Below are positions 1 to 11,422 of a stretch of DNA of 31,857 bases, in pieces; within the stretch, counting starts at the first letter, position 1, and each line of letters begins with the position of its first letter. The position numbers and the translations under genes were made by a program. The stretch spans positions 1 to 31,857 of the IMG/VR virus record IMGVR_UViG_3300024529_000008; one strand, 5' to 3'. This DNA is from a virus. The notes beneath the pieces are model-generated. The model had not been told where the DNA came from and made no database searches. It saw only the letters and a list, made by a program, of their open reading frames with translations.

Positions 1-421
<421 letters not shown>

Positions 422-3088: not shown

Positions 3089-4228
3089 TTAGAGTGCGGG
3101 ATCATTCGATTCAGACTCTACATTGAATAAATCTGATTCATCCGTTGCTAAATGCTTTTGTATAACTTGCTTAACAAATGTTCGTTCCGAGTCAGCACCA
3201 CCAGATGCATCAAAGAATGGTAATACTGATACCTGTGTGGCTTCTGCTAAATCAAATCCATCGGCTAATAACTCACAAATTCTAACTGTCATTCTAGTAG
3301 ATATCATGGTTGACAGTTTACCTTCTTCTGATCTCCATTCTTTTCTTGTGGAGTCGGCAATATCTGCTACTGCTGATATTAGTGTCGATTCAATTTGTGG
3401 AAATCTTTTTGTTAACAACACAGACTCTTGTTCTAGTGATAAAATATCAACTTCGATAATTTCAAATCGATCCATTAATGCTCTATCTAATACTCGTGTC
3501 GATGTATACTCAGTACCAATATTGGCTGTGGCAATAAATGAAACGCCTTTTGCTACTTTAATTATCGGTGCATTAACTGATTCGTCTAGTCTTAAATATC
3601 GCTGACCTTCATCTAATACTGTCATTAATATATTCCATGCTTCTGGATGTGCTCTTGATAATTCGTCTAACAATATAATTGCATTTTCAGTTTCAATAGC
3701 TTTGACAAATGGTGACTTATCAAATATTGTTTCGCCTTCTTTGAAATGGGTATTACCTATTAATGTGGATCTAGGATCTTGTGTTGCACCCAAATTAAAA
3801 TAAAAGAATGGATTCTTAATAGCATCTGGCAATGATTTTGCAGCTTGAGTCTTACCACACCCAGCTGGTCCAACCATCATGATGTTTTTCCCTCGTATTG
3901 CTGATCTAACAAGATATTTCCATTTAGTATCAGACATTTCTAAGTTAGTCGGCTTAATAGATGGAGCGTCTTTAATAAATGCTAATACCGGATCATCATT
4001 TTTTATATTTACTTTTGGAACATCAATCGTTTCTTCTGCCGGAATACTTGACATTTCAATACGTCTAGCTCTATGAGTCTCTGTGTTAAGTTCTAATGCT
4101 TGATTTGATTTTGCAGCCAACTCAATCATATCATTACGAAACATATCTGTAATAGTCGCTCCGGATTTTAGATCTTTAACAATAGTTTTACCGTTTTCTT
4201 CTTTAATAATACCAATAATTTTTTTCAT
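3089..4228 (-). CDS. MoxR/CobS-like AAA+ ATPase
   Basis: 379 residues. Walker A GPAGCGKT at 120-127, Walker B ILLDEL near 185-190, sensor-1 TAN at 234-236 and DRALMDRFE near 248-256 mark an AAA+ ATPase of the MoxR/CobS group. The first about 100 residues are a phage-type extension without a recognised domain. CobS-type ATPases drive a CobT-type vWA partner; that partner is the next gene (1000-2949). Phage CobS homologues are well known in cyanophages, but their substrate is not settled. The AT-rich leader (minus strand from about 4270) has TATATAATATTAATATATAAATT but no clear Shine-Dalgarno. The terminator at 3011-3059 ends this unit. Confidence 0.88.
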   Translation of the reverse strand: MKKIIGIIKEENGKTIVKDLKSGATITDMFRNDMIELAAKSNQALELNTETHRARRIEMSSIPAEETIDVPKVNIKNDDPVLAFIKDAPSIKPTNLEMSDTKWKYLVRSAIRGKNIMMVGPAGCGKTQAAKSLPDAIKNPFFYFNLGATQDPRSTLIGNTHFKEGETIFDKSPFVKAIETENAIILLDELSRAHPEAWNILMTVLDEGQRYLRLDESVNAPIIKVAKGVSFIATANIGTEYTSTRVLDRALMDRFEIIEVDILSLEQESVLLTKRFPQIESTLISAVADIADSTRKEWRSEEGKLSTMISTRMTVRICELLADGFDLAEATQVSVLPFFDASGGADSERTFVKQVIQKHLATDESDLFNVESESNDPAL

Positions 4229-4746: not shown

Positions 4747-5502
4747 TTATAATTCCTGTCGTATTCCTAATTTAGGCAACATCAATCGCCATTTCTTTAA
4801 AATTTTATTTTTATCGGTTCCTGATATAACACCATTATTTACCCATATATCTAAATATGAATTAACTACTTGAGCAAATGGTTGTTTTAATTTCTTTGCT
4901 TTACTATATAATCCTTGTATCATTGCCGGTTGTTCTTTTTGCAATAACCAATAATTATATGTTTCAATTTCACCTGATTGGATCTTATCTCTACGAGCCA
5001 TATCCGACCTTAAATATTTTGATTGCATCACGTTCCACCCACTCTGTGTTATGTGTTCTATTTCATGGCGTAACACATCTCTAAGATCCATTGCAATTTC
5101 TGATAATATTTTAGGATACTCGTCTGGATCTAATTCGAATCTAACTTCAATTAATGGCGGTGAATCTGCCTTTGCTGGATCCTTTGCACTATCATTATAT
5201 GCATCCCCTCCATATCTATAATCATTAAATTTAGATATCCATTGTACTTTTAAGTTTATATAGAATTCTAATGGGATATCCGGAGCTTCAACTTCTTCAA
5301 AATATATATGAGCTTGATCATCCGAAACAATTTGAGGAACTGATTCATTTTCTGAATAATATATCTTTTCACCAGCAAATGTTCCGTCTGCAGATTGTGT
5401 TGCAGAATAACTGTCTTTGATTGTTCGTAGTAGAATATTAGATAGTCTGGTTACTAAACTATCATAACGTCCTTCTACTATTATATTTTTTAGTGATATC
5501 AT
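4747..5502 (-). CDS. HExxH metallopeptidase-like virion protein with N-terminal tag
   Basis: 251 residues. It begins MISLKNIIVE, one of the shared N-terminal tags in this window that end in (L/I)-x-E, the cleavage pattern of T4 prohead protease. The zinc-site motif is LRHEIEHITQSG, with HEIEH at 146-150; a candidate third ligand is Glu190 in KEQPAMIQGLY. The arrangement suggests a gluzincin-like peptidase, which fits a processed or packaged virion enzyme. No transmembrane segment or secretion signal is visible. It follows a second, larger HExxH protein (5509-6768) by 6 bases, so the two are co-expressed. The activity is inferred from the motif only. Confidence 0.78.
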   Translation of the reverse strand: MISLKNIIVEGRYDSLVTRLSNILLRTIKDSYSATQSADGTFAGEKIYYSENESVPQIVSDDQAHIYFEEVEAPDIPLEFYINLKVQWISKFNDYRYGGDAYNDSAKDPAKADSPPLIEVRFELDPDEYPKILSEIAMDLRDVLRHEIEHITQSGWNVMQSKYLRSDMARRDKIQSGEIETYNYWLLQKEQPAMIQGLYSKAKKLKQPFAQVVNSYLDIWVNNGVISGTDKNKILKKWRLMLPKLGIRQEL

Positions 5503-5508
5503 GTAAGT

Positions 5509-6768
5509 TTAGGCTAAATTAGAACCAGGTGTTTTATTTATTTTACTTTGATTTGCTGCTAATTGATTTATTTTATTTAACATTATATTTATATCCGGAA
5601 AATCATTTTTAGCCCAACACATTAAAATCCAACTCATATCTGTATCACGTTTTTCTCGCGTAATATATGGTTTCAACATATCATATGTTATAACACCACC
5701 TGGTTTTATGTTTAATGTTTTTCTAATCGACATGATATTTGACATTTTTTCGTTTTCTCTACAAACATAACCTGGATCTTCCGATTTTTCGCGTTTATCA
5801 GCTGCTTCTTTCCAAAAGTTTAAATAATCTGTATCAATTCCTAATTTTGTAGCGGTATTCTTAAGACTGGCAGGATAAGAACTTTTTTTCATTGCTGGTA
5901 GTGATCCTTGGATCTGCGGTGTAGTTTGTTTAACAGTTTTATTAGTTACAAATGCATCTTTTATTTTTTTACTTGGGTTTAACGGTTTAATATTATATAT
6001 GATATGTTGTATTTCATGTATCAGTGTACCATATGGGTCTGGGTCGTTGAGTGAACAATTTACATATATATGATAGTTACTTCTCGTTGTTACAAATGCA
6101 TAAGCACCTGGAGATACTTTTTGGCTTCCTACCGATGTCATTGTATTATCATAAAATATTAATTTTAAATTGGATAATGATTTCTTATAACTATCAAAAG
6201 CCTCTTCAACTGTTGTATAAGACAAATCCGCAAATTTGGCACTATCATCTGGATAATTGTTTTCTACTTTTTTGCGTGTTATCGGATCTGTTAACCAATT
6301 TTGCCAAAAAGCGAGAGCTTTAGGTAATTCACGATTCCATCTATCTTTACATTTACTATTTATTTTTATTATCGGTGTTTTAAATTCTTTATCTGATTTT
6401 ATACGTGTAATTTGAAAGTTTCCTGAAAAAAGATCTTGGCCAAAACCATTCGATCCAGCTTTAAAGGTTGCGTCAACACCTATAGATTTTAATTTGTTAA
6501 CTAGTTTAACTATATCACTATAATTAAATCGGTCATATTCTTCATTTATCATATCATTAAAACTGCTATATCCAGTTTTTTTGTTTTTGAACTGTTTTAA
6601 TAATTGTGCAAATTCTGTAGGTGTTTTTAATAAACCAATTGCAGCTACAATTGCATCTGGATCGGTACCCCAACCTGCACTAGCATTAACAATTTGATTG
6701 TATGCTGTTATTATTACATTGTTTCTACCAGGTGATGTCTGTTCTAGTATGTGTTTTAATCGTATCAT
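5509..6768 (-). CDS. Large HExxH protein with annexin-like repeat and N-terminal tag
   Basis: 419 residues. The start MIRLKHILEQ is the shared tag with a potential cut after ILE. Residues 32-61 contain AGWGTDPDAIVAAI, resembling the G-x-GTD calcium loop of annexin repeats, a pattern also seen in some phage virion proteins. The zinc motif is GTLIHEIQHIIYN, with HEIQH at 251-255. It lies directly upstream of the other HExxH protein, and the two may be distant relatives. It probably is a virion or internal-head protein; peptidase activity is inferred only. The start overlaps no gene, and 13 bases separate it from the HNH gene. Confidence 0.72.
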   Translation of the reverse strand: MIRLKHILEQTSPGRNNVIITAYNQIVNASAGWGTDPDAIVAAIGLLKTPTEFAQLLKQFKNKKTGYSSFNDMINEEYDRFNYSDIVKLVNKLKSIGVDATFKAGSNGFGQDLFSGNFQITRIKSDKEFKTPIIKINSKCKDRWNRELPKALAFWQNWLTDPITRKKVENNYPDDSAKFADLSYTTVEEAFDSYKKSLSNLKLIFYDNTMTSVGSQKVSPGAYAFVTTRSNYHIYVNCSLNDPDPYGTLIHEIQHIIYNIKPLNPSKKIKDAFVTNKTVKQTTPQIQGSLPAMKKSSYPASLKNTATKLGIDTDYLNFWKEAADKREKSEDPGYVCRENEKMSNIMSIRKTLNIKPGGVITYDMLKPYITREKRDTDMSWILMCWAKNDFPDINIMLNKINQLAANQSKINKTPGSNLA

Positions 6769-6781
6769 ATACTAATAAATA

Positions 6782-7330
6782 TCACTCTAACAAATTGTAG
6801 TTCCAATAATGTTCTTTTTCTTGATTGTAAGGATTTCCTGTTTGTTGATAGTAACAATTCATGCAAAGCATTTGTAAATTTTCTATGCAGTGATTTGTTT
6901 CATCTCCATCGATATGATCTAATAGAAGTGGTACTGTATCATCTGTTATACGTCGTTCTTCATATCCACAACTATTACATTTTTCTGGGAATATAGCTAA
7001 TGCTAAAAGTCGATTTCTCAATTTCCACGATGGATATTTTGGATGTTTTCCTGATAATATATTATCAATTGAATACATTCCGCTATTTGCTTTAACTACA
7101 TCTTTTGGTATCCCAACCCCAAATTGATTTTTATGAAGCTCATATAATGTTTTCCCAGTTTCTCGGTCCTTGTACAATTTTGCATATTTCTTATAAGATG
7201 TAAATGATATTTTTAGGAAACGAGCAGCTGCAGCATTAGACTTTGTATTCTCCATAGCATATCGAATATCAGATTCTGGGATATTTAATGCACTACGACC
7301 TTTGCCATATACATACTTATATTCTGACAT
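6782..7330 (-). CDS. HNH endonuclease, free-standing, with N-terminal HTH-like region
   Basis: 182 residues. The C-terminal half is a zinc-containing HNH fold: C118/C121, DHIDGD at 138-143 with the conserved His139, Asn151, and C156/C159. The N-terminal region around 29-50 (NTKSNAAAARFLKIS...) resembles a helix-turn-helix used for DNA recognition. This is the usual design of phage homing-type HNH nucleases, which spread next to the genes they target. It sits between two groups of virion genes, and its ATG overlaps the previous stop by one base (TAATG). No intron or inverted repeat was seen around it. Confidence 0.85.
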   Translation of the reverse strand: MSEYKYVYGKGRSALNIPESDIRYAMENTKSNAAAARFLKISFTSYKKYAKLYKDRETGKTLYELHKNQFGVGIPKDVVKANSGMYSIDNILSGKHPKYPSWKLRNRLLALAIFPEKCNSCGYEERRITDDTVPLLLDHIDGDETNHCIENLQMLCMNCYYQQTGNPYNQEKEHYWNYNLLE

Positions 7331-7716
7331 TAATAGATTCCTCGTTTCTGTAAAAATGATACTGCGGATCTTACTGATGTATTGTTATCGAAAAGTTCTC
7401 TTAGTTCTGTTCTATACTTGCCGGTCCAATCGGTAAATGTAACCGGATAAACACCGCTAGCTTTTTTGACAGCGTCATACCAATAACTGTATGATGGATA
7501 CTTGTCTGAGAATACCTGAGCTTCAGATCTATTAGCCATATGATCTATTTGATCTTTTATTGGCCACAGATTAAAAGGAACGTTCGGATCCTTTCTACGT
7601 GCTGGCAACTGTTCTTTATGTTTATTACGTCTTTCATTTCTAGTAATAAATTTATCCATTAAATTAATAGATCTATCCTTCGGCGATTCGCCGGTGTATG
7701 CTGCTTTTTTACCCAT
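7330..7716 (-). CDS. Hypothetical protein
   Basis: 128 residues, basic N-terminus and a Trp/Tyr-rich middle (SYSYWYDAVKKASG). No family recognised. It overlaps the HNH gene by one base and the 62-residue gene upstream by eight bases, so all three are translated from one message. It could travel with the HNH nuclease as a passenger, or be a separate phage gene; the sequence does not say. Confidence 0.65.
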   Translation of the reverse strand: MGKKAAYTGESPKDRSINLMDKFITRNERRNKHKEQLPARRKDPNVPFNLWPIKDQIDHMANRSEAQVFSDKYPSYSYWYDAVKKASGVYPVTFTDWTGKYRTELRELFDNNTSVRSAVSFLQKRGIY

Positions 7717-7897
7717 CTGTTGGTTTATTTTTATTTGTTAATATAACTATTTTCTTCCAAGCATCCTCAGCTCGGTATATATACTTTTTAAACTTAATAA
7801 CATTTTGCTGTGTTCTTGCAAGTTCTGCCCATTTCATGTTTCTATGATATGTTGCATGTAAAAATCCTATTCGTATTGTTCTGATAATCTTAAACAT
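7709..7897 (-). CDS. Small basic hypothetical protein
   Basis: 62 residues, rich in Lys and Arg, with WAELARTQQNVIKFKKYIYRAEDAW suggesting helical structure (given here only as a short impression of residues 23-47). It overlaps the downstream gene by 8 bases and the ClpS-like gene by 8 bases. This tight packing on both sides is the main reason to accept it as real. No function can be suggested. Confidence 0.55.
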   Translation of the reverse strand: MFKIIRTIRIGFLHATYHRNMKWAELARTQQNVIKFKKYIYRAEDAWKKIVILTNKNKPTDG

Positions 7898-8156
7898 GTT
7901 TTTTGTATTTATTCATTGTAACTGTTAATCCTGCAGCTATTAATTTATTTTTTAATCCAATACACATAGCATATTTATCTATAACTACAGAACACTTTTT
8001 ATTACGATCCGTTATTAATGCACATTGATTTGCTTGGAATTCGTTATGACCACAGATTTCAATCAAGCAGTTTATAACATGTTCGAAACTAATATTGTTG
8101 TCGTCATGCAATATCAGTTCCCACTTTCCTCTAGTACTTAATTGTTTTTTGGACAT
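7890..8156 (-). CDS. clpS: ClpS-like adaptor for the Clp protease (N-degron pathway)
   Basis: 88 residues, the normal length of a ClpS core. The strand KWELILHDDNN (11-21), the helix FEHVINCLIEICGH, and QANQCALITD...KCSVV follow the ClpS fold closely, and the wording resembles Bacteroidota ClpS. Bacterial ClpS delivers proteins with destabilising N-terminal residues to ClpAP/ClpCP. Compared from memory with E. coli ClpS, two pocket positions differ: the Asn of the NDD motif is His17 here, and the pocket His of the VHY region is Asp50. One residue also seems inserted after HDD. It may therefore recognise other substrates, or block the host adaptor. The gene overlaps the upstream UVR-motif gene by 26 bases. 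Confidence 0.8.
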   Translation of the reverse strand: MSKKQLSTRGKWELILHDDNNISFEHVINCLIEICGHNEFQANQCALITDRNKKCSVVIDKYAMCIGLKNKLIAAGLTVTMNKYKKHV

Positions 8157-8343
8157 CTCTTATAATTGCACATTGTTCGTATAACTCTAATTCTGTTGCA
8201 TATTTTAGTGATTCGTCTAGAAACTCATTCTTTTCTTCCTTACCCCACGTACTAGGCCAAGTCCATGAATCATATTGCATAATATTAATTGACTCGATAA
8301 ATAATGCTTTGACATAATTTATATTTGTATAATTTTCACCCAT
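8131..8343 (-). CDS. Small protein with C-terminal UVR-like motif
   Basis: 70 residues. Residues 39-69 (NEFLDESLKYATELELYEQ, then CAIIRDVQKTI) match the helix-hairpin pattern of UVR motifs, found in UvrB/UvrC, in ClpC and in McsA-type regulators. The first 38 residues are Trp/Tyr-rich and unrecognised. The 3' end overlaps the clpS-like gene by 26 bases. A UVR-like protein next to a ClpS adaptor would make sense if both touch the host Clp machinery, but the motif is short and could be coincidental. The leader carries the boundary motif at about 8356-8368. Confidence 0.65.
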   Translation of the reverse strand: MGENYTNINYVKALFIESINIMQYDSWTWPSTWGKEEKNEFLDESLKYATELELYEQCAIIRDVQKTIKY

Positions 8344-8388
8344 ATATTATATATAATAATAAATATCAGGTTAATAACCAAATATTAA

Positions 8389-8940
8389 TTACAAGTTATC
8401 ATATACGGTTTGTGCAGACTCGGTTCTAGATTTTTTGCTTAATTTTAATTCAGCCGAACCCATTCTTTCAGATTTAGTTGCAAATCCCAATGCTTTCTCT
8501 TTTATTGTAGAACCTGACATTGCTCTTTTAAACATAGTAACTTCATAATTAGGACTATTCAATATACTCTTTGGTAAACCAGGTATTAATCCTTTATCTG
8601 GTGCACTATTACTTTTATATCCATTCTTTAATTCAACACGTAAGAACCAAATTTGAACTTGTGTTTCGGATATCTTTCTACCAATTAATTTAGCATATTG
8701 TTTTAATGCCTTTAAACGATCTCCTCTCCATTGAATAAGACCATATGCTCCAGACTCCGAACCAGCTGTTGGATTAAATGTCGATTCTGCCCACATATTT
8801 CCTACAATAGCCGCTGCTTCTGATTTACTAAAACCAGATGAAATTAAATCATTAGCTAACGCAACACCAGCTGGTATATAACTTTCATTGTTAGCTAATG
8901 GATCATTTCCTTCACCCAATATGCTTTTAAGTTTAATCAT
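8389..8940 (-). CDS. Phage tail lysozyme with N-terminal tag
   Basis: 183 residues. After the tag MIKLKSILGE, residues 23-90 form a lysozyme-like domain of the phage tail lysozyme type: GFSKSEAAAIVGNMWAES with the likely catalytic Glu52, then GAYGLIQWRGDRLKAL. These enzymes cut the peptidoglycan glycan backbone to let DNA or the tail tube through. A tag on such an enzyme fits delivery with the particle and not cytosolic lysis, which here is served by the amidase at 17404. The ATG overlaps the stop of the upstream zinc-ribbon gene by 8 bases. Confidence 0.88.
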   Translation of the reverse strand: MIKLKSILGEGNDPLANNESYIPAGVALANDLISSGFSKSEAAAIVGNMWAESTFNPTAGSESGAYGLIQWRGDRLKALKQYAKLIGRKISETQVQIWFLRVELKNGYKSNSAPDKGLIPGLPKSILNSPNYEVTMFKRAMSGSTIKEKALGFATKSERMGSAELKLSKKSRTESAQTVYDNL

Positions 8941-9106
8941 TTTTTCTTTTTTCTTTTTTCAATTTAGGAGTATTATCATGTCCGCATTTATGGCATATAT
9001 ATAAATCATCACCACCATCTTTTATTTCCCAAGACCATGTACAGTTATCACATTCGATTTTATCGCCTACAATTGCTTCAAATAATATGTGTTTTAATTT
9101 AATCAT
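8933..9106 (-). CDS. Small zinc-ribbon protein with N-terminal tag
   Basis: 57 residues from the chosen ATG at 9104-9106: tag MIKLKHILFE, then CDNC and CHKCGH, a four-cysteine zinc ribbon around GGDDLYICHKCGH. The upstream extension to 9142 was rejected because the tag then starts at residue 13, and because 9106 sits one base after the previous stop. The CDNC...W.W...GGDDLYICHKCGH pattern is common in T4-like marine phages as an unassigned small protein. The basic tail (KLKKEKRKND) may bind DNA. It is presumably a virion-associated protein, given the tag. Confidence 0.82.
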   Translation of the reverse strand: MIKLKHILFEAIVGDKIECDNCTWSWEIKDGGDDLYICHKCGHDNTPKLKKEKRKND

Positions 9107-9107
9107 T

Positions 9108-9851
9108 TTACTTTTTTGACTTATTACCCCAATTAGCTGCACCTTTATTTCTGCATTGAACTAATGCCCCGGAAGCATAAGCTGATGGCCATTTCTTATA
9201 TCTACCTTTAACTTTATAATAACATGCATCTTTTTTTTCTTCAATATTGATTTCGTCTAAAACTGATTCTGTTTTTGTTTTACTAGATACATTTTTAGCT
9301 TTACCACTACGATTTGGGTTTGGGTCTTCCCTACGTTTTTTGCGTACTGCTGCAGCTCTTTGTTTTTTTGACATTTCCGCAGCTGCTTTTTTTGATAGGC
9401 ACTTAGGAGTACCTTCGCCTTTCTTTCTATCACCACACTTACCAATTTTTTCTCCTTTGGTATTGTAACGATCCCAACCACCTCCGGATGCACTACCTTT
9501 GTTGCCCTTACCAAACCAAGCTCTCAAATCTTCTTCGATTTCATCTTCATACATGATCATTTGATCTTTATCAGAAAATCCTTCATCTGGTAATTTTGCT
9601 TCACGCTTAACACAATTAGGAACACGTTTTCCGAACATGGTTTTCATACCTTTCTTCTCGTAGCCTTTCCAACAACGAGTTCCCTTTTCATCTAATAGAT
9701 CTTCATCTACTTTATCTGGAAGCTCATCATAGTCTTGTTTAGTCATTTTGCTAGCAAGTTTTTTAGCAGCTTCTGGTTCATTTGCAAACATGTATCGCTG
9801 TTGCGATTTGCTAGCAAATTTTTCAACTAGTAGTGATTTTAGCTTAATCAT
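9108..9851 (-). CDS. Basic tagged virion-type protein, several Cys-containing segments
   Basis: 247 residues from the ATG at 9849-9851, which overlaps the previous stop as ATGA; a longer frame to 9875 exists but would bury the tag MIKLKSLLVE. Recognisable segments are KSQQRYMFAN after the tag, GTRCWKGYEKKGMK...VPNC, RYNTKGEKIGKCGD...KCLSKK, a Lys/Arg-rich linker (about 165-205), and a C-terminal CYYKVKGRYKKWPSAYASG...CRNKGAANWGN. These segments recur in phage and giant-virus proteins of unknown role. The high charge and the tag suggest an internal head protein packaged with DNA. No enzymatic motif is visible. Confidence 0.78.
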   Translation of the reverse strand: MIKLKSLLVEKFASKSQQRYMFANEPEAAKKLASKMTKQDYDELPDKVDEDLLDEKGTRCWKGYEKKGMKTMFGKRVPNCVKREAKLPDEGFSDKDQMIMYEDEIEEDLRAWFGKGNKGSASGGGWDRYNTKGEKIGKCGDRKKGEGTPKCLSKKAAAEMSKKQRAAAVRKKRREDPNPNRSGKAKNVSSKTKTESVLDEINIEEKKDACYYKVKGRYKKWPSAYASGALVQCRNKGAANWGNKSKK

Positions 9852-10486
9852 AGCCTTTCTTCCACTACTTTCCAATCAATAACACGAAAAAAGTCATTGA
9901 TATATGATCCACGTTTACTTCGATGTTTTAAATAATATGCATGTTCCCACACATCCATCCCCAATACAGGAATACCACTACACCCAGAATCAATATAAGG
10001 ATTGTCTTGATTTGCAGTACTACAAATTTCTAGTTTACCGTTATCATTGCATAACCACACCCAACCAGATCCAAATCTATCTAATCCAGCTTGTTTAAAT
10101 TGTTCTTTGAATTCAGTAAAACTACCGAATGCATCGTCAATCATAGCTTTAAGTTTAGCACTAGGAGCTTTATAGTTAGGAGTCATATTTTCAAAATACA
10201 ACAAATGATTTATATAACCTCCACCATTATTTCTAACAGTGTCTTTCTTATAATGTTTTTTAAATATATCAATTGCACGATTTAAATAACCATGCTTATC
10301 AGAAGAGTATTTGAATTCTTTGCATGCAGCATTAAATTTATCAGTGTAGCCTTTATAATGTTTTTTATAATGCTCTTCCATTGTATCCGTATCAATGATT
10401 GGATTCAGTGCTGATAATTCATATGCTAATGGAAGTCGTTTAAATTCTTGTTCTTTAGCTTCCGTCAAAATACTCATCAATTTCAT
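9848..10486 (-). CDS. sodA: Superoxide dismutase, Fe/Mn family (Mn-type), with N-terminal tag
   Basis: 212 residues. Converts superoxide to oxygen and hydrogen peroxide. All four metal ligands are present: His39 (EEHYKKHY), His94 (GYINHLL), Asp178 and His182 (MDVWEH); Tyr47 fits the gateway tyrosine. Gly90 and Gln160 in STANQDNP match the Mn-type, not the Fe-type, arrangement. Ahead of the domain is MKLMSILTEAKEQ, with a cut site after LTE as in the other tagged proteins, and no such leader is usual in bacterial SOD. It lies among tagged virion-type genes, so a packaged enzyme is an attractive idea. The start overlaps the upstream small gene as TAATG. Confidence 0.93.
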   Translation of the reverse strand: MKLMSILTEAKEQEFKRLPLAYELSALNPIIDTDTMEEHYKKHYKGYTDKFNAACKEFKYSSDKHGYLNRAIDIFKKHYKKDTVRNNGGGYINHLLYFENMTPNYKAPSAKLKAMIDDAFGSFTEFKEQFKQAGLDRFGSGWVWLCNDNGKLEICSTANQDNPYIDSGCSGIPVLGMDVWEHAYYLKHRSKRGSYINDFFRVIDWKVVEERL

Positions 10487-10635
10487 TATTCGTCCTCTTT
10501 TGACTTAACAGAGTGCAATTTCTCCATTATCTTTTCATATTCTTTATATGTGATATTGGTAGCATCAATTGCTTCCATATATCCTTTAAGCCACTGCACA
10601 AATTCATGAGCAGTTATTTTTTCATATTCTGCCAT
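10486..10635 (-). CDS. 49-residue conserved phage protein
   Basis: Encodes MAEYEKITAHEFVQWLKGYM and continues to ...HSVKSKEDE. The EFVxWLKGY motif, followed by a helix with KxxYxxIxxKL, is common in small proteins of T4-like phages with no assigned function. Support for a real gene: ATG overlapping the upstream stop (TGATG), AAAGG about 7 bases before the ATG, and a stop overlapping the SOD start (TAATG). Confidence 0.75.
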   Translation of the reverse strand: MAEYEKITAHEFVQWLKGYMEAIDATNITYKEYEKIMEKLHSVKSKEDE

Positions 10636-10931
10636 CATTTACCTTTTTGTGAACTTTTCAATACACCAGTAAGTGTCATATCCATTGGTGTGTCATGTTT
10701 TGATTTAGACTCTTCGCCACGAACATAATGTGTCATATAATCTTTAACTTTGTTCATGTAATCTGATGCTAATGTTATTTTAGCTTCTAACCACTCAGGT
10801 AAATCATCAGTTTCTTGAATCATGTTAGCTATATCCATTGCATCTTCGGCACATTCTATAGCAGAATATTTTGCCATTTTACCTTCACGTTCTTCGTGAC
10901 CACAACCACAATCTTCTTCTAATTCTTTCAT
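10635..10931 (-). CDS. Conserved small phage protein with Cys-rich N-terminus
   Basis: 98 residues. The N-terminus has EEDCGCGHEE (5-14), which could bind a metal. The core IECAEDAMDIANMIQETDDL followed by PEWLEAKITLASDYMNKV is helical and resembles a small protein repeatedly found among structural genes of marine myophages; function unknown. A good AAAGG ribosome binding site precedes the ATG. A similar DCGC cluster occurs in the 63-residue protein at 12858-13049, so the two may bind the same kind of partner or metal. Confidence 0.78.
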   Translation of the reverse strand: MKELEEDCGCGHEEREGKMAKYSAIECAEDAMDIANMIQETDDLPEWLEAKITLASDYMNKVKDYMTHYVRGEESKSKHDTPMDMTLTGVLKSSQKGK

Positions 10932-10957
10932 TATATTTCCTTTAGACTTTTTTATAC

Positions 10958-11422
10958 TTATTTTATTGGTCCGCCTCCGACCCAGGCATCACAAGTTCTA
11001 GCTCCTGCACATTTAAACCAAAAGAATTCACAGAAACCTATATTTGCATTTTTAACTATTGTCTTCCCATCATCGCCAATTGCTTTTTCTATTTTAGACA
11101 ATGTTGATTTCTTTTGATCGAAAGCACCGCAATTTGAACATCTAGACTCTTTAGCAGCATCAACAGTTGTATTCCATAGCTCTGCTTTATTTTCCCAAAA
11201 CTGTTTTGACCCTTTCTCATCATCTGGATTAAGTGGTCCGTAACTATATTCTTTAATGGTTTGATTTCTATTCAATGTATTTAAATCTAAATCAGTAATA
11301 GAATCTTCAGGTTTTACTTTACTTTTACCTAATGACTTCTGTTTAGCAATAGCAGCCGGTGTATTATAAGAATCAGACGACTCCAATATACTTTCCTTTA
11401 GTATGTGTTTTAATCTTTCCAT
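10958..11422 (-). CDS. Tagged cysteine-containing virion-type protein
   Basis: 154 residues. Tag MERLKHILKE, followed by a second LE site (SILE) at 12-15. The C-terminal half is conserved-looking: YGPLNPDDEKG, then CSNCGAF (about 95-101), GFCEFFWFKCAGARTCDAW and a final GGGPI. The five or six cysteines suggest a small zinc-binding domain. Similar proteins are common in cyanophages and other T4-like phages without a known role. The ATG follows immediately on the boundary motif at 11422-11435, with no Shine-Dalgarno. Confidence 0.8.
   Translation of the reverse strand: MERLKHILKESILESSDSYNTPAAIAKQKSLGKSKVKPEDSITDLDLNTLNRNQTIKEYSYGPLNPDDEKGSKQFWENKAELWNTTVDAAKESRCSNCGAFDQKKSTLSKIEKAIGDDGKTIVKNANIGFCEFFWFKCAGARTCDAWVGGGPIK

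Follow-up and report, generated by a model that had tools for sequence, protein, structure and literature searches.

What does a bacteriophage do with a ClpS adaptor whose N-degron pocket departs from that of its presumed host? ClpS is a bacterial protein that selects substrates for the Clp protease, and the question is raised by an 88-residue reading frame in the viral record IMGVR_UViG_3300024529_000008, of which positions 1 to 31,857 were analysed as one stretch of 31,857 nucleotides (hereafter the window). The initial annotation, made from the sequence alone, had read the frame as a phage ClpS with altered pocket residues, which may change the choice of N-degrons delivered to the host Clp protease or act as a decoy.

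By sequence and by fold, the protein belongs to the ClpS family. Pfam ClpS (PF02617) matches it with 40.1 bits (E 3e-10) at a cut-off of 23, and the PHROG of a phage 'ATP-dependent protease' matches weakly. An AlphaFold model (AF2), built from 38 related sequences, reached a mean pLDDT of 90.7 and displays ClpS topology, with its elements in the order E11-17, H24-35, H39-52, E54-61, H62-74 and E78-83. At E <= 0.001 the PDB gave 38 matches, every one of them a ClpS entry or a ClpS-domain construct; many ClpS structures resemble the model with TM of about 0.7-0.8 and Z of 13-16, and the top match in a second look was M. smegmatis ClpS (Z 15.8, rmsd 0.7 Å over 76 residues), with residues 10..85 superposed on 25..100, ranges of equal length. 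The ClpS fold pattern claimed initially, for which structure prediction had been proposed as the check, is thus borne out: the prediction yielded that fold. A likeness to the C-terminal domain of L7/L12 was also recorded (Z about 10). Between the window gene and its nearest relative (the L001 copy), dN is 0.11 and dS 1.59, and the resulting dN/dS of about 0.07 reveals strong purifying selection and rules out a degenerating gene. A longer ClpS start was likewise rejected: the in-frame Met that relatives show eight codons upstream is a product of overlapping the partner gene, and in the window a stop is found at this place. Coordinates are collected in Table 1.

Table 1. Features of the clpS locus in the window
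Feature	Position	Strand	Basis or remark
clpS, ClpS-family adaptor, 88 aa	7890..8156	-	Pfam, AF2 model, PDB matches, dN/dS
Basic N-terminal extension of ClpS, 11 aa, charge +4, no junction prolines	8124..8156	-	
Codons of Asp18-Asp19-Asn20 (for E. coli Asn34-Asp35-Asp36, N-degron pocket)	8097..8105	-	alignments
Codon of Asp50 (for pocket His66)	8007..8009	-	alignments
Obligate upstream partner, 70 aa, three helices, C-terminal UVR-like motif (ELELYEQCAIIRDVQKTI)	8131..8343	-	overlaps clpS by 26 bases
Third cassette gene, 62 aa	7709..7897	-	overlaps the clpS end by 8 bases

The register of the pocket was obtained from gap-free motif placement in a MAFFT alignment, an HMM alignment (257 sequences) and a profile-to-PDB alignment, in which W12-E-L-I-L-H17-D18-D19-N20 lies on E. 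coli Y28-K-V-I-L-V33-N34-D35-D36 and T49-D50 on V65-H66. His17, proposed at first as the replacement of Asn in the NDD motif, is therefore misplaced in that reading: several independent alignments set it on Val33, the residue preceding the motif, a position at which His ranks first among phage copies (56/82) and second in cellular ClpS (38/148). The replacement of the pocket His by Asp50 was read correctly, as Asp50 aligns on His66. The true substitutions in E. coli numbers are Asn34 to Asp18, Asp36 to Asn20 and His66 to Asp50, so that the pocket is indeed altered, through another set of residues than supposed, and no alignment restores Asn and His to it. None of the canonical recognin residues Asn34, Asp36 and His66 is thus present; in Caulobacter ClpS, the alpha-amino contacts are Asn47, Asp49 and His79 (PMC12493166). 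Polar or acidic groups still occupy all three amine-site positions of the window protein, Asp35 is retained as Asp19, and the hydrophobic cavity is lined as in host ClpS (Asp19, Phe24, Val27, Ala46 and Leu77), differing by Ile22 for Asn at position 38 and Thr49 for Val at position 65. Because the amine-contact residues were tested and differ from the canonical set, we do not file this family member as a canonical N-recognin.

How this set compares with the remainder of the lineage was assessed on two samples. Cellular Bacteroidota ClpS (n=70) were drawn by HMM as the best 30 and the weakest 40 of the match list, not at random, and another cellular sample was excluded from the pocket counts since its search patterns included pocket residues; the 52 distinct phage ClpS, including that of the window, were fetched via the neighbouring partner gene, blind to the pocket. 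While the cellular copies carry His66 in 70/70, Asn34 in 68/70 and an acidic residue at 36 in 67/70, 14 of the phage copies have Asp at 34, 33 are without an acid at 36 and 3 lack His66 (non-Asn at 34, 14/52 vs 2/70, p 2e-4; non-acidic 36, 33/52 vs 3/70, p 4e-13; His66 loss alone, 3/52 vs 0/70, p 0.07; these p values are indicative only, as the sequences are related). Asp35 and the cavity (Val43, Leu99, residues 40 and 62) are conserved lineage-wide, and His66 is present in 49/52. With these columns left out of the tree, a minimum of 12 changes is needed at position 34, of 13 at position 36 and of 3 at position 66; the window's group comprises L001/L103 (DDD/N), L104 (NDQ/H) and L111, L112, L168 (NDD/D), and its closest relative has Asn at position 66. 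His66 was therefore lost at least twice, in the small branch that holds the window and somewhere outside it. Positions 34 and 36 thus vary freely in the lineage, and His66 is lost in few branches only, including that of the window. Furthermore, 8 of the 17 changes relative to the closest relative fall into two pocket-mouth loops, chosen post hoc, that make up 15 of the 88 positions (p 0.001). Compared with the cellular copies, the phage copies show greater variability in the amine triad (p 0.04) but no clear excess over the 12-position pocket set (shuffle p 0.20), so that a general relaxation of the whole pocket is unsupported.

Differences from the host protein extend to the regions presumed to engage the unfoldase. 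Bacteroidota cellular ClpS has the fold, the Pfam family, Asp35 and the hydrophobic cavity in common with the window protein, but carries Asn34, an acidic 36, His66 and an acidic extension of about 20 aa. The long disordered N-terminal extension with junction prolines is missing from the window protein, and the charge of this segment averages +3.5 in phage ClpS vs -1.8 in host ClpS. In E. coli, the extension of 26-27 aa enters the ClpA channel, and blocking it impairs delivery (PMC9663308); since the extension is poorly conserved across the family (PMC9663308), its shortness carries weak weight. Across the phage lineage, the surface presumed to face ClpA no longer shows the V-K-x-G...L...P consensus of host ClpS. 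Together with the basic 11-aa extension, this suggests that docking has in part been rewired, perhaps by way of the partner.

This partner gene precedes clpS at 117/117 lineage clpS loci read (47 further loci scanned were huge-phage, jumbo or unrelated clpS copies) and, in reverse, clpS follows it in all 76 loci with enough DNA, four others stopping at a contig edge. A third gene is present at 184/226 ClpS or partner loci, a total that includes huge-phage loci and contig ends; profile searches of the Pfam/PHROG type gave no family match of weight for it. The C-terminus of the partner, ELELYEQCAIIRDVQKTI, resembles the UVR motif, which in host ClpC reads QKYEEAAKLRDDEKNI, and hhalign against a profile of seven host UVR motifs, itself picked for motif likeness, gave a probability of 77% and a score of 26.6, compared with a maximum of 13.4 in 200 column shuffles and 16.6 for the reversed control. 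Pfam UVR (PF02151) had no match at E <= 1 among 23 partner members and none at the partner gene in 18 phage records, and a fold search of the partner in the PDB returned nothing significant. Motif and profile likeness thus only hint at a UVR character of the partner. Two relatives carry, separately, a small gene that matches UVR better: that of G012 (L509, G012:107100-107900, SEDYETAAQMRD) exceeds the Pfam cut-off, and that of G025 (L510, G025:164900-165700, NEDYETAAQMRD) falls below it.

The surroundings of the cassette deserve mention in their own right. At least seven neighbouring genes (window 4747-11422, minus strand) share a leader such as MIKLKSLLVE or MISLKNIIVE; a regular expression for it hit 6/49 ORFs vs 0.3 expected, and 140/561 ORF starts vs 3.3 expected in the 3-kb loci of relatives. 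The leader resembles the T4-type capsid-targeting sequence, cut by the prohead protease after LxE, and a gp21-like Peptidase_S77 occurs in 8/12 long relatives. The predicted internal virion cargo would include lysozyme and metalloprotease-like proteins, and a Fe/Mn superoxide dismutase (9848-10486, minus strand, Pfam 131 bits) may be packaged inside the phage head given its leader MKLMSILTEAK. The ClpS of a 636-kb uncultured phage (L005, ORF 3926-4210) starts with MIKLGILTEIQ, resembling such a leader, and might be virion-packaged. A further pair, at 1000-2949 and 3089-4228 (minus strand), combines a CobT-like protein (VWA, just below the Pfam cut-off) with a MoxR/CobS-like AAA+ ATPase.

The carriers of this ClpS are a group of uncultured T4-like phages. 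Their clamp loader shares at most 38-45% identity with T4-like phages, so that the collection compared holds no close isolate of the lineage, and a megablast search of phage records with the first 25 kb of the window returned nothing. In the tree, the ClpS proteins of these phages fall together with those of Bacteroidota, which makes a Bacteroidota host likely. ClpS exceeded the Pfam cut-off in all 12 long lineage contigs, which were picked for holding the cassette or belonging to the lineage, and neither Clp_N nor ClpP was found in these possibly incomplete contigs; a phage-encoded partner unfoldase or protease thus finds no support there. Clp_N unfoldases occur in 6/6 sampled Bacteroidota genomes, and in several of these the unfoldase gene also encodes a UVR motif. 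Since no ClpA/C or ClpP was found in the long relatives, phage ClpS probably targets the Clp machine of the host.

Phage-encoded ClpS as such is already known. Jumbo phages were reported to carry it (Iyer et al. 2021, PMC7824862), as was Atu_ph07 (PMC6102473), and it is annotated in PA5oct, GAP32 and Phosso, so that the initial view of a little described phage N-degron adaptor was only partly right. In the jumbo and huge phages (PA5oct, GAP32, Atu_ph07, Phosso and uncultured ones of 634-642 kb), clpS lies outside the cassette described here, and the huge-phage copies retain NDD/H; altered pockets are also found in Atu_ph07 (DDQ/E) and Vibrio phage 2.275.O (NDD/D). The Asp/Asn/Asp residue set is likewise known, from Leptospira ClpS1. 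New are the lineage-wide cassette of partner, clpS and third gene, the drifting amine site and the corrected register.

Our working model, held tentatively and at slightly less than an even chance, is that of a functional adaptor with a changed choice of ligands that acts on host ClpC/A during infection. Phage ClpS would dock on the host Clp unfoldase (ClpC/ClpA type) and thereby alter the intake of the host protease; its hydrophobic cavity could still accommodate a side chain, whereas the grip on the alpha-amino group would be rebuilt from Asp18/Asn20/Asp50 in place of Asn/Asp/His, and such a rebuilt site may prefer different or fewer ligands than host ClpS does. The UVR-like partner, made just before ClpS by overlapping translation, probably joins it on ClpC. 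This co-adaptor role is modelled on chloroplasts, where ClpS1 is paired with ClpF, a UVR-motif protein that also touches the UVR-bearing ClpC (PMC7966870) and that, unlike the phage partner, has a YccV domain as well. Family and fold, purifying selection, the kept Asp35 and cavity and the clustering of changes at the pocket mouth argue for the model, as do the missing Clp_N and ClpP in the long contigs along with the Clp_N of the six Bacteroidota genomes. Two of the three changes (34 and 36) need not abolish N-degron binding and, by analogy, would be compatible with it, because M. smegmatis ClpS, with DDP, was solved with PheAla and TrpSer: mycobacterial ClpS (9ayn, 9ayo, 9b1p), the closest structural match, shares Asp34 and the lack of an acid at 36 with the window protein, but keeps His66. 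It is the loss of this alpha-amino-contacting His66 that speaks against the model, together with the extension, short and free of prolines compared with that of E. coli, and the lost host consensus on the side that, from the comparison with E. coli, would face the ClpA N-domain.

A somewhat unlikely alternative is a decoy or anti-adaptor, in which the protein occupies the N-domain of host ClpC/A without accepting N-degron substrates, so that host ClpS is kept off and phage or tagged proteins are shielded from Clp. All three amine-contact positions are changed and the extension is short and without junction prolines, in favour of this role; a pure decoy, however, has no need of the conserved Asp35 and cavity, and most lineage members keep His66. 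A precedent is Leptospira ClpS1, which has the window's set as Asp30, Asn32 and Asp62 but differs in being a cellular paralogue beside a canonical ClpS2 and in having a gate Tyr instead of Phe. As described in the available part of its report (PMC12493166), it binds ClpA through the N-domain (Kd 0.44 uM), inhibits the ClpA ATPase and stops ssrA-substrate degradation in vitro, in line with a decoy; since the same part reports no N-degron delivery by ClpS1, this precedent does not separate adaptor from decoy. Of the two, the altered-specificity adaptor is the favoured reading.

It is quite improbable that the phage protein is an ordinary adaptor, its Asp/Asn/Asp set binding the alpha-ammonium and delivering Phe/Leu/Tyr/Trp N-degrons so as merely to raise the ClpS dosage. 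The polar or acidic character of the amine site and the mycobacterial structures with their dipeptides would suit it, but His66 is invariant in the cellular copies sampled, and host ClpS is already present in 125/149 genomes of the class to which Tenacibaculum belongs, so that an unaltered second copy would leave both the drifting pocket and the partner gene unexplained. Finally, a repurposed fold serving another partner (e.g. the UVR-like protein, the ribosome stalk site or a virion protein) instead of a Clp unfoldase, to which the diverged putative ClpA-facing region, the likeness to L7/L12 and the basic rather than acidic extension might hint, is very improbable given that the pocket cavity and Asp35 are conserved and that the window ClpS, unlike several neighbours, lacks a capsid-targeting-like leader.

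Extending the altered-specificity adaptor to the whole locus, we envisage, as an unlikely scenario, a Clp-reprogramming cassette of two or three genes, in which a UVR-like co-adaptor and a ClpS with a rebuilt and fast-changing amine site would seize host ClpC and impose a new substrate choice, as a viral counterpart of ClpF-ClpS1. ClpS is a simple and well-understood N-recognin, whose amine-contact residues are nearly invariant in the host copies examined; a phage lineage that lets them drift while the gene is otherwise strongly constrained, and that always places the small helical partner next to it, is thus a natural experiment on the re-aiming of an N-degron reader. It suggests that these T4-like phages target host proteolysis and offers a concrete test case in which Clp may be redirected or blocked by phage adaptors, not by the phages' own proteases.
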